DNA of 64,000 bases from Prevotella sp. (GTDB taxonomy: Bacteria; Bacteroidota; Bacteroidia; Bacteroidales; Bacteroidaceae). A program made the translations under genes and the position numbers. Shown piece by piece: positions 7,491 to 60,508 of the stretch. The first letter of the stretch is position 1. The number at the start of each line of letters is the position of its first letter. Below the pieces are notes generated by a model that was not told the origin of the DNA, ran no database searches, and saw nothing but the letters and a program-made list of their open reading frames with translations. The stretch spans positions 145,257-209,256 of the forward strand of contig JAIKZG010000009.1 in the NCBI GenBank assembly GCA_024682415.1, given 5' to 3'.

Positions 7491-7677
7491 ATGGATAAAT
7501 TTTTGCTCTCTGCTATTGATTTGCATTGTTTCTTTGTTTATATTTGCTTTTGAAGGCTATAAACTTGGTGTGTTTCGCATTCCTAACACAAAAGTGAAGT
7601 TATTTATGAAACATCAATTTCCTAAGGATGCAACTACCAAAGTAATAAACAAAAAGAAAACAACTTATTGTGAATGA
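7491..7677 (+). pseudogene. Small single-TM ORF, ATGA-coupled to the avd-like gene; apparently needs a 1-nt frameshift in a T5 run
   Basis: Frame ending TGA 7675-7677 reads WINFCSLLLICIVSLFIFAFEGYKLGVFRIPNTKVKLFMKHQFPKDATTKVINKKKTTYCE*. The only nearby ATG (7491, MDKF...) is in another frame and joins it if one T of 7500-7504 is removed. Stop overlaps the avd ATG (7674) as ATGA. Confidence 0.4.
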
Positions 7678-8039
7678 TTGCAGAGAGCAAGTTGCCGCTA
7701 TACAGAGATTTGTTCAACTTGCTGAATGGCATTCTCGACATGTGTAAGTCGTATTCTAAGTTCTTCAAAATGACGGTGGGTGAACGCACTGTCAAGGAGT
7801 GCTTGGATTTGATGGCGCTTTTCCTAAGAGCGCGCAACGTGAGAAAGAATACCGAAATAGTGGAAGAGATGGACGCAAAATTTGAAATGGTGCTCGTATT
7901 GTTTCGGGCAGGCGTTCAGCAGCGAGTCATTTCTGAAGCTCAATACGCACGCTTCGCCGTGTTGTTGGCAAATGTTGGAGCGCAGATAGCGGATTGGAGG
8001 CGTGAGTGCCATAAGCGCGATGCCTCAGGCGAAATTTGA
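7674..8039 (+). CDS. avd: Avd-like four-helix-bundle protein (DGR accessory variability determinant family)
   Basis: ~120 aa, all-helical, basic; upstream of RT; C-terminal block ISEAQYARFAVLLANVGAQIADWRRE resembles known Avd layout. Confidence 0.7.
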   Translation: MIAESKLPLYRDLFNLLNGILDMCKSYSKFFKMTVGERTVKECLDLMALFLRARNVRKNTEIVEEMDAKFEMVLVLFRAGVQQRVISEAQYARFAVLLANVGAQIADWRRECHKRDASGEI

Positions 8040-8424
8040 AATAATGAGACAGCAGACAATCTTGTTCTAAATTCAGGGGGAATATAATTGTTTTAGATTA
8101 TTAATTCGTGACCACTTGAGTTTTGGTTACTGATACTCCCCAAAGGGTCATCGACAGACTAATTGCGAGTCCGCATTCCTCCTATTAATAAGTTTCGTTT
8201 TCAGGTGCGGAGGAGCGTAGTTCGTTAAGATGAAACAAAACAGATGACAAAAGGCGTTTCAGGCAGAATACCTACCTGCCAGTGATGGTAGCTTATGTTT
8301 CGCCTCGAAATTGTGCCCTTGGCTACAAAAACTCCGGTGCGTCGCCTTGTCGCGCCGCCCGGCCTGCTTTGGAGAGCTTAGTTTTATGAAGCTATAAACT
8401 TAGTATTATTTTAATTTATATAAA
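8040..8424 (+). ncRNA. Structured spacer between avd and RT (candidate RT-associated RNA; TR not identified)
   Basis: 385 nt without a convincing ORF. Possible stems: 8109-8113/8146-8150 enclosing 8122-8126/8140-8144; 8171-8175/8206-8210; 8252-8256/8301-8305 enclosing 8262-8266/8276-8280 (alternative 8272-8276/8287-8291); GC-rich hairpin ~8334-8362; near-palindrome 8377-8403. Confidence 0.5.
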
Positions 8425-9723
8425 TTGAAAGAATTCCCTAAACCGATGTGGCGTTATCTCAATAAAATCGGCGACGAGAAGAATAGTGAGCTTAGCATCG
8501 ACGATGTATTTGCCGCCTATTTCGCTCTTCGCAAAAACAAGAGGAGAACGCCCAGCGCATTAAGATTTGAACTTGATTTCGAGCGCCGCTGCGTTGATTT
8601 GCATAAACGCATAAATGCCCGCACTTATCATCCGGGACGCTCGGCTGTCTTTATTGTTTCCCATCCGATAGTAAGGGAGATTTTCGCCCCTGCCTTTGAA
8701 GACAGGATTATCGATATGATTCTTCAACGGAAACTTGTCCCGTTGCTTGAGCGTTTTTATATCACCGACAGTTATTCTATTCGTAAGGGGAAAGGCGTGT
8801 TGTTTGCCGTGAAGAGGGTAGCGCAGCACATTCGCAAATGCTCTAAGGAGTATACTCAGGACTGCTATATTCTGAAACTCGATCTGCGCAGTTATTTCAT
8901 GTCGCTTAATAAGGAGATGTGCCTTAAAATGATGACCGATTTCGTTTATCGTGAATATAAGGGCGCCGACAAAGACGTGTTGATATATCTTATCCGTGAG
9001 GTTATCCTCGACTGCCCTCAGCACAACTGCCAGAGGCTTACTCCGCCTGACTCGTGGCTCAAGTTGCCGTGGCATAAAAGCCTGTTTAATGTTCCCGACA
9101 ATCATGGTCTTCCCATTGGGCGGATGACGAGCCAGATATGCGCCATGTATGTGCTTGTGCAGCTCGATAAGCTCATAACCAAGAACTGGGGAGTGAGATA
9201 TTATGGGCGGTATATGGACGATATGGTGTTGATACACAGAGATAGAAAATATCTGTTGCAGGTGGAGCAGAAGATAAAGGCATGGCTTGCGGAGCACGAC
9301 CTCAGCCTGCATCCCCACAAGCGATATCTGCAACATTATACAAAAGGTGTGAAGTTTGTAGGAGTAGTAATCAAGCCGTGGCGCAAATACATCAGTAATC
9401 GCACGGTAAGTCGTGCCGTGGAACGCATAAATCATTATAATCAGCTTATTTCCGAGAACAAATATCTCGTGTTTGAGTATGCCGAGGAGTTTGCCTTTTC
9501 GCTCAATTCCTTTCTTGGCATGATTTCGCATTACGACTCTTATAATGTGAGAGTAAACTTGGTGCGTAGGCTCGATGACGCGTGGTGGCGTGTGTTTTAT
9601 TTCAACAACGGCTACAAGCGTGTGTCGGTGAAGAAACGTTTTAGAAGTAGATTTGTGGAGCAGAGAAAAATACATATACAATTGCAAAATGACTTTACTC
9701 GAATTATTGGATATACAAAATAG
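8425..9723 (+). CDS. DGR-type reverse transcriptase (TTG at 8425 or ATG at 8446)
   Basis: RT motifs YILKLDLRSYFMSL (motif A), GLPIGRMTSQ (DGR-like motif B region ending SQ), YGRYMDDMVL (catalytic YMDD), KGVKFVGVVIKPWRKYISNRT. Confidence 0.9.
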   Translation: MKEFPKPMWRYLNKIGDEKNSELSIDDVFAAYFALRKNKRRTPSALRFELDFERRCVDLHKRINARTYHPGRSAVFIVSHPIVREIFAPAFEDRIIDMILQRKLVPLLERFYITDSYSIRKGKGVLFAVKRVAQHIRKCSKEYTQDCYILKLDLRSYFMSLNKEMCLKMMTDFVYREYKGADKDVLIYLIREVILDCPQHNCQRLTPPDSWLKLPWHKSLFNVPDNHGLPIGRMTSQICAMYVLVQLDKLITKNWGVRYYGRYMDDMVLIHRDRKYLLQVEQKIKAWLAEHDLSLHPHKRYLQHYTKGVKFVGVVIKPWRKYISNRTVSRAVERINHYNQLISENKYLVFEYAEEFAFSLNSFLGMISHYDSYNVRVNLVRRLDDAWWRVFYFNNGYKRVSVKKRFRSRFVEQRKIHIQLQNDFTRIIGYTK

Positions 9724-10156
9724 CTCAAATGGCAAACGCATGTTTCTCATTAAGATAGGAGCGTTTTATCGCGCCTACGATAATGCTGCCTTTGCCATTC
9801 ACAACCTCATGGGCTATAAGATAGTAAGGAAAAGAGGCAAGGACGGCAAGCCTTTGTTTTATGTCGGTTTCCCTGCCACTCAGCTCGACAAGGTTGTCGA
9901 CGAGATAAATGCCCATGGTGGCAGAATGGGTCAGGTGGAAGAGGGCATTATTGGCTTCAAGGATATAAGTTATGTGGTGGAAGAGGGCGCGAAGATTATT
10001 GATGCCGACAGCTTCAGCCGGCATAAGCATGTCGATGGCAATGTGTCAGCGCTTGTTAAGACTTTGTCTTCCTTATTGTCGGAATTGACAAAAAACACAA
10101 ATATTAATATCGACATTCATATCACCGTGGGCGACAATGCTTCTAAGAAGAAATGA
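9689..10156 (+). CDS. MutS N-terminal-domain-like (MSL) DGR accessory protein
   Basis: MFLIKIGAFYRAYDNAAFAIHNLMGYKIVRKRGKDGKPLFYVGFPATQLDKVVDEI resembles MutS domain I; overlaps the RT 3' end by 35 nt. ATG at 9689 preferred over 9653. Confidence 0.6.
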   Translation: MTLLELLDIQNSSNGKRMFLIKIGAFYRAYDNAAFAIHNLMGYKIVRKRGKDGKPLFYVGFPATQLDKVVDEINAHGGRMGQVEEGIIGFKDISYVVEEGAKIIDADSFSRHKHVDGNVSALVKTLSSLLSELTKNTNINIDIHITVGDNASKKK

Positions 10157-10182
10157 GGAAGTTTTTATAGTTGGCATGCTTC

Positions 10183-10608
10183 TTGCGAAGCCATGAAATG
10201 ATAATAGGAAGATTTGCCCGTTCCATTATTTTATAATCTTTGCTTTAAGAAGCGAAAAACGCAAGCGTAGTCTTTAATACTATTTAACAACGAGGTGAAA
10301 CTATGTTTATAGTTGTAGCAGATTGTTAATAAGAAAGTGAAACTATGTTTATAGTTGTAGCAGATTGTTAACGGAAAGTGAAACTATGTATATAGTCGTA
10401 GCAGATTGTTAATAGATAGTGAAACCATGTTTGTAGTTGTATCAGAATGTTAATAAGAAGTCATTTCTACGGCTATAATTGCCATTCGTCTTAAATTTTC
10501 CCTCTTTCTCCATGCCTTGAATGAAGAGTTCTTCGCTGTGTTATATGTAAAATGAAAGACTAAGAAGCTGATTATTAACATCCTCATTTGCCGATAATCG
10601 TAAAAACA
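10183..10608. repeat. Dispersed ~425-bp intergenic element, copy 1
   Basis: Near-identical core to 60084-60508 (e.g. aagatttgcccgttccat...ctttgctttaagaagcgaaaaacgcaagcgtag...cgaggtgaaactatgtttatagttgtagcagattgttaa), with weaker identity to gattattaacatc...tgccgataa...gtaaaaaca. Confidence 0.9.
10295..10455. repeat. Four tandem ~41-42 bp units, each with a hairpin (AACTAT-GTTT-ATAGTT)
   Basis: Unit starts at 10295, 10337, 10378, 10419; core gtgaaactatgtttatagttgtagcagattgttaa. Confidence 0.9.
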
Positions 10609-10691
10609 TGAAAGTTATTCGCGGCTCTTCCTCATTTTGCTATATTTTTATAAAAAAAAGATGAAAGAGAGAGTAATAGAAAATAATTCAC

Positions 10692-35718: not shown

Positions 35719-35975
35719 AAGTTCTTCCCCGTTTGGGGAAAATTAGAAGGGGCATAAGATATTTTCATAGCTTCATAAAGCTAAGTTTATAGTCAGTGGT
35801 GCGTAGCTCGTGAGAGTCAAAGCACCACTTTTAAAGAGAATTAGTTTCAAAATAAAGATAATAGGGAAGTTCTTCTTCCCATTGAGGGCGATCAGAATTT
35901 TCGTTTTCAGCTGATTGCCCCCTCCTTGAGTTGCGGTGCACTGCTCGTGAGAGTGAGTGCATCGCTTTTGTTGTA
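35719..35975 (+). repeat. Two diverged ~140-bp units each ending in a hairpin with a shared gctcgtgagagt loop
   Basis: Hairpin 1 agtggtgc 35795-35802/gcaccact 35822-35829; hairpin 2 gcggtgcact 35933-35942/agtgcatcgc 35956-35965; additional stem gggcgatcag 35886-35895/ctgattgccc 35911-35920. Confidence 0.65.
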
Positions 35976-36264
35976 AACAACTTCTGAGCATTGCAATTTT
36001 ATAGATATATTTGCCAAGATATAGCCTATTTTACTGCTATCCCCAAATTTAAATCGTTAAATCTGTCAGCTATCCCCGAATTTGAAATGGTGGATTTGTC
36101 GTCTATCCCCGAATTTGGCTTGCAGTTGATGGAAAAACACGGAGCGAAAACGCGTGCTATGTATCATGAGGCAAAGTTTTTGGTATATATGGTAAAGTCG
36201 GTGTGGGAGGATTTGTATAACTTTGAACCCCAATAAAACCTATACATATATTATAAACAACTCT

Positions 36265-60083: not shown

Positions 60084-60508
60084 TTGCAAGCTATGAAATG
60101 AAAATAAGAAGATTTGCCCGTTCCATATTTTTATAATCTTTGCTTTAAGAAGCGAAAAACGCAAGCGTAGTATTTAATACTATTTAACAACGAGGTGAAA
60201 CTATGTTTATAGTTGTAGCAGATTGTTAATAAGAAAGTGAAACTATGTTTATAGTTGTAGCGGATTGTTAATAGAAAGTGAAACTATGTATATAGTCGTA
60301 GCAGATTGTTAATAGATAGTGAAACCATGTTTGTAGTTGTATCAGAATGTTAATAAGAAGTCATTTCTACGGCTATAATTGCCTTTCGTCTTAAATTTTT
60401 CCTCATTCTCTTCGCTTTGAATGAAGATTTATTCGTAACTTTGCCTTTAAAATTAAAGGTGGAGAAGCAGATTATTAACATCTTCCTCTGCCGATAACTG
60501 TAAAAACA
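60084..60508. repeat. Dispersed ~425-bp intergenic element, copy 2
   Basis: Same layout as 10183-10608; four repeat units at 60195, 60237, 60278, 60319. Confidence 0.9.
60436..60443 (+). promoter_or_regulatory. -7 box TAACTTTG at the 3' end of element copy 2 (absent in copy 1)
   Basis: Matches TAnnTTTG; would give a ~400-nt leader for the helicase gene. Confidence 0.5.

Follow-up and report, generated by a model that had tools for sequence, protein, structure and literature searches.

A Prevotella cassette with the reverse transcriptase, Avd and leader RNA of a diversity-generating retroelement, probably orphaned of its template repeat and target

The window analyzed here is a stretch of 64,000 nt from a Prevotella sp. 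genome (contig JAIKZG010000009.1, positions 145,257 to 209,256, forward strand). It contains a short cassette with the genes of a diversity-generating retroelement (DGR), in which the original prediction recognized no template repeat (TR). Is such a locus a DGR, the remains of one, or something new built from its parts? The original prediction allowed two answers: that the TR and its targets are remote, or that a DGR-derived reverse transcriptase (RT) was repurposed to a dedicated structured RNA. The features of the cassette are as follows.

7674..8039, + strand: gene of the bAvd accessory protein (avd), 121 aa; PF22296 E 2.3e-11 and phrog_3206 E 4e-17; paralogues at cassettes C2 and C38 of the same genome
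8139..8253, + strand: leader of the DGR template RNA; match of covariance model R1, and covariation
8147..8152, + strand: 5' strand of the closing helix P1 (GUCAUC); pairs with 8243-8248
8243..8248, + strand: 3' strand of the closing helix P1 (GAUGAC); pairs with 8147-8152
8254..8424, + strand: TR slot, holding non-TR sequence by composition, TR similarity test and near-copy searches
8377..8398, + strand: 22-nt part of a hairpin repeat that occurs genome-wide; 21/22 identical to several genomic places
8425..9723, + strand: DGR-type RT, 432 aa; profiles, invariant residues and 8ub7 (E 2e-17)
9689..10156, + strand: MutS-domain-I-like protein, 155 aa; PF01624 E 1.7e-6; overlaps the RT end

Profile scores and coordinates bear out the predicted tight order of three genes, avd, RT and MutS-domain-I, each with an intact ORF. 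The Avd accessory gene adjoins the RT gene; its product exceeds the Pfam family cut-off, and the PHROG family that it matches is named "Avd protein of DGR". The gap between avd and the RT gene is 385 nt long (8040-8424). The MutS-like gene, whose PF01624 match is also above cut-off, has its ATG 35 nt inside the RT 3' end; it is an accessory common to related DGRs, and roughly half of the related loci have a homologue. Its position is fluid: it stands elsewhere in the operon, and not after the RT, at two related loci (L043 and L075), and comes first in C38. A "small TM ORF" had also been proposed at the cassette start; it spans 20 codons when begun at the ATG at 7491 and 53 when begun at the TTG at 7516, and its status as a gene has no support. 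The upstream gene is an ordinary GH127 (E 5e-121), as had been stated. Because the flanks consist of Maf, GH127 and a DPP IV peptidase, the location is not obviously a prophage.

The RT, which starts at TTG, matches RVT_1 (E 2e-21) and the RT family phrog_1423 (E 7e-73). It carries GLPIGRMTSQ and YMDD, which correspond to the (I/V/L)GxxxSQ motif 4 and the YxDD of the DGR clade. Among solved structures it matches 8ub7 best, an entry titled "Reverse transcriptase" that we take to be the RT of the Bordetella phage BPP-1. Retrons and DRT/UG systems likewise pair a standalone RT with an RNA of its own and an accessory gene, and an assignment to them was considered. It was rejected: their models score far lower for the window RT than phrog_1423 does (at best RT_UG4, E 6.5e-22; retron St85, E 2e-14), and its nearest sequence kin are all DGR RTs. 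The window RT descends from DGR RTs, with which it groups at 100/100 and 96/92 support, and its place is among the RTs of TR-bearing relatives (96/92), nearest to that of C2. None closer than C2 was found in 398 genus genomes or in the family and order samples.

We compared the conservation of this RT with that of its kin. It retains 22/22 invariant and 42/44 near-invariant residues. Its terminal branch is longer (0.87 vs 0.44 and 0.40), and it is altered at 30 of 141 kin-conserved sites, compared with 15/126 and 14/125 in the sister RTs; relative-rate tests gave mixed results (p 0.001-0.7). A template lost recently, with selection slightly relaxed since, would account for this state, and so would a shift in role; without orthologs of the exact cassette the two look alike. 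In a genome of another family (G791), three DGR-type RTs with in-frame stops (L076, L077 and L078) represent decaying DGRs, unlike the intact window RT.

The same genome harbors two paralogous cassettes, both ordinary DGRs whose TR/VR mismatches are directed at adenines. In C2 (L040), whose RT is 52% identical to that of the window, the avd, RT and MutS-domain-I genes accompany a 130-nt TR; all 15 VR mismatches are at A, and the target is a fimbrillin-like (Mfa_like_1) lipoprotein of 592 aa. C38 (L041; RT identity 40%) has the order VR - MutS_I - avd - TR - RT, and its TR/VR mismatches are at A bar one. A TR was present in all 21 related loci checked, which comprised C2, C38, loci of 15 other genomes and four phage records. 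Adenine-directed TR/VR pairs were found in 14 of the 15 other-genome loci and in the four phage records; at L043 the TR is clear and the VR is masked by N. In these relatives the VR lies within 2 kb of the TR. Because the 21 TR-bearing relatives behave alike, the cassette family is a DGR family and the window copy is its exception. The window shares with Bacteroidales DGRs such as C2 the gene order, bAvd, the leader module, an RT with IGxxTSQ and YxDD and the overlapping MutS-domain-I gene; C2 has a TR and a VR in the Mfa_like_1 lipoprotein, whereas the window has neither.

The absence of a TR/VR pair was examined at several scales. Within the window, the longest adenine-only near-repeat of the gap is 23 nt, close to the shuffled maximum of 21, and the statement that the window holds no A-substituted copy of the 385-nt spacer thus stands. 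Elsewhere in the assembled genome (2.52 Mb in 49 contigs, 86.9% complete) there was neither an adenine-only near-repeat nor a VR, and no VR was found in 398 other genus genomes. A TR with its cognate VR is therefore absent from the window and the assembled genome, with 13% of the genome unassembled. A DGR target gene usually carries a C-type-lectin-like VR domain; here the neighbors are the GH127 and DPP IV peptidase genes. Other intergenic parts of the cassette were considered as a TR, but the whole-cassette genome search returned only paralogous coding sequence, an interspersed repeat of ~430 nt and the 22-nt repeat piece. A repeat at 10169-10613 was rejected as a TR/VR pair; its mismatches are spread over all four bases. 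The description of the locus as a DGR gene set without a recognizable TR agrees with the window and genome searches and with the composition of the slot. The idea of a remote TR and remote targets is unsupported: the genome search proposed for it found no VR, and the slot is not TR-like.

Mini-ORF arrays were observed at window positions 10295-10460 and 60195-60360 and at four other loci of the same genome (L079, L080, L081 and L082). Each of the six holds exactly four tandem mini-ORFs spaced by 42/41/41 nt, and nearly all units follow GTGAAACT or GTGAAACC. A mini-ORF consists of eight codons and then TAA (MFIVVADC, MYIVVADC, MFVVVSEC, MVIVVTEC, MFVVVREC and others), and the peptides follow M-[FYV]-[IV]-V-V-x-[DE]-C. 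None of the 24 units is broken, and 24 of 41 differences fall at third codon positions, which suggests translated 8-residue peptides ending in Cys. The arrays had no match in phages or plasmids and no Rfam family.

The avd-RT gap contains a leader module that is conserved in the related loci (GGGUCAUCGAC ... GUUAAG ... GAUGAC). A 21-nt motif common to the gaps of the window and C2 is the 5' strand of P1 across relatives. The 3' strand lies directly before the TR in relatives, and the TR begins 0-23 nt after it in the four that were measured. The strands change together: GUCAUC/GAUGAC in C2, GUUAUC/GAUAAC in L042, GUCGUC/GACGAC in L058, GUUACC/GGUAAC in L059 and GUUGCC/GGCAAC in L043, among others. 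P1 was tested by partner swapping, as a MAFFT alignment of all leaders misplaced the short ones; the mean score was 15.9 with the own partner and 11.1 with swapped partners, and none of 2000 swaps was as good. In a five-sequence leader alignment, 8 of 15 pairs had changes on both sides. In an eight-sequence alignment, which was fitted to the structure and is favored by this, the share of paired cells is 95.5%, with a covariation score of 0.476 vs 0.197 when shuffled (0/500). P1 is 100% paired in these eight sequences, and that of the window is perfectly paired.

The covariance model R1 was built from five relatives with the window left out. A cmsearch with R1 gave a single match in the 64 kb, at 8139-8253 (38.5 bits, E 8e-8), and genome-wide C2 and the window alone fell below E = 1. 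Among 398 genus genomes, every other leader found (G260, G024, G302, C2, G077 and G254; 6/6) immediately precedes a TR. The leader is therefore part of the template RNA in this DGR group, and the window has kept it. No Rfam family corresponds to the leader, and the cassette has chance-level Rfam matches only. In one of its two answers the original prediction had a dedicated structured RNA in the avd-RT spacer. Positions 8139-8253 are indeed structured, but they form an ordinary DGR leader, and just the 176 nt that follow are unusual.

The BPP-1 DGR has a homologous RT and the avd - RNA - RT order in common with this group. Its structured spacer is placed 3' of the TR in PMC12875486, whereas the covarying module here is 5' of the TR. 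The four core BPP-1 components named there do not include a MutS-like gene (PMC12875486).

From the end of P1 to the RT start there are 176 nt, where the TR belongs in relatives. This slot is GC-rich and A-poor up to 8376. Its A content (19%) and its AAY frequency (2.4 per 100 nt) are below those of all 19 real TRs compared, which range over 25-39% and 7.2-13.9, respectively. In Smith-Waterman comparisons with 20 TRs, the slot had one match at p <= 0.05, a chance-like result; a real TR matches 17-19 of the 19 others. An IMH-like GTGCGTCGCCTTGTCGC within the slot was considered as a TR remnant arisen by chance; the TR similarity test does not support it. Searches of its own genome, of 398 further genomes of the genus and of phages and plasmids gave no near-copy of the slot. 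Folding was not significant for the slot (z -1.8, 10/200 shuffles as good) or the whole gap (z -0.7). The 22-nt repeat piece at 8377-8398 lies just 3' of the GC-rich part, which suggests, without proof, that the slot was replaced by rearrangement. The repeat to which this piece belongs is a composite, REP-like hairpin (GTGGTGCTTTGACTCTCACGAGCTACGCACCACTGGCTATAAACTTAGCTTTATGAAGCTATAAA), present at window ~35785-36000 (- strand) and at more than twelve similar genomic sites.

The cassette is not classed as a functional DGR: RT, Avd and leader are those of a DGR, and the TR/VR pair and the target are absent. On balance we lean towards an orphaned DGR in which the TR was replaced and the target lost, with the RT-Avd-leader machinery intact. 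The cassette descends from DGRs of this genus that bear a TR and have the order avd - leader RNA - TR - RT - MutS-like. Unrelated sequence would have taken the place of the TR, and the target gene with its VR would be gone, with none remaining. Mutagenic retrohoming from this locus could then not work, because the TR is replaced and no VR target is left. The RNP would probably still form and reverse-transcribe, since leader RNA, Avd and RT are intact. We infer both the loss, instead of a new role, and the residual RT activity. Loss of TR and target, which the original prediction did not name beside its two alternatives, fits best with a TR in all 21 relatives, the leader at the right place, the non-TR slot, the lack of a VR, an RT changed at more conserved sites and a mobile-looking repeat fragment on the 3' side of the slot. 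Against it stand the intact ORFs, the conserved RT residues and the perfect P1, so that either decay is yet to set in or selection is still acting. The mixed rate tests also count against it, as does the fact that there is no ortholog of the exact cassette by which to date the TR loss; moreover, a VR could sit in the part missing from the 86.9% complete assembly.

The same intact parts, leader helix and MutS-like protein included, would be expected of a repurposed RT, in which RT-Avd would bind the former leader and copy the new segment 8254-8400 into a cDNA with another role, for example in defence or regulation. About twice the sister RTs' change at conserved sites would suit such a role shift, and the slot folds somewhat better than its shuffles. 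We consider this unlikely: that fold is not significant, the same slot occurs in no second genome among the 398 others of the genus, no TR-less relative was seen among those examined, and the nearby genes are housekeeping. It is rather unlikely, too, that the DGR swapped its diversifying template for a new RNA segment, with RT and Avd still docking on the conserved leader and copying a dedicated structured RNA into cDNA that has no part in diversification; this would be an exaptation seen in one genome, next to two ordinary DGRs. The slot sits exactly at the post-leader TR position, 176 nt before the RT, and the incomplete assembly would leave room for a conventional DGR in which the TR is unusually A-poor and the VR lies in the missing 13% or on an element that this strain lacks. 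This appears quite improbable, as the composition of the slot is outside the range of the 19 real TRs, it has no similarity to TRs and no near-copy in the genomes, phages and plasmids searched, and relatives have their VR less than 2 kb away. Finally, the window RT might act in trans as a helper on the TR-RNA of C2, whose P1 strands are identical to those of the window leader; in the remaining leaders of the comparison the covarying pairs are different. A common P1 is expected from kinship, C2 owns complete Avd, RT and MutS-like genes, and the two RTs are just 52% identical; we regard such help as very improbable.

If the RNA of the slot were used, the locus would illustrate a route by which a mutagenic retroelement becomes a new RT system. 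It offers a natural "template-minus" DGR beside two complete ones in one genome, which allows the functions of leader, RT and template to be taken apart. A covarying leader just 5' of the TR, without an Rfam match, is present in this genus's DGR group. The most reusable result is this leader, which offers a search handle for locating DGRs and the start of their TRs.
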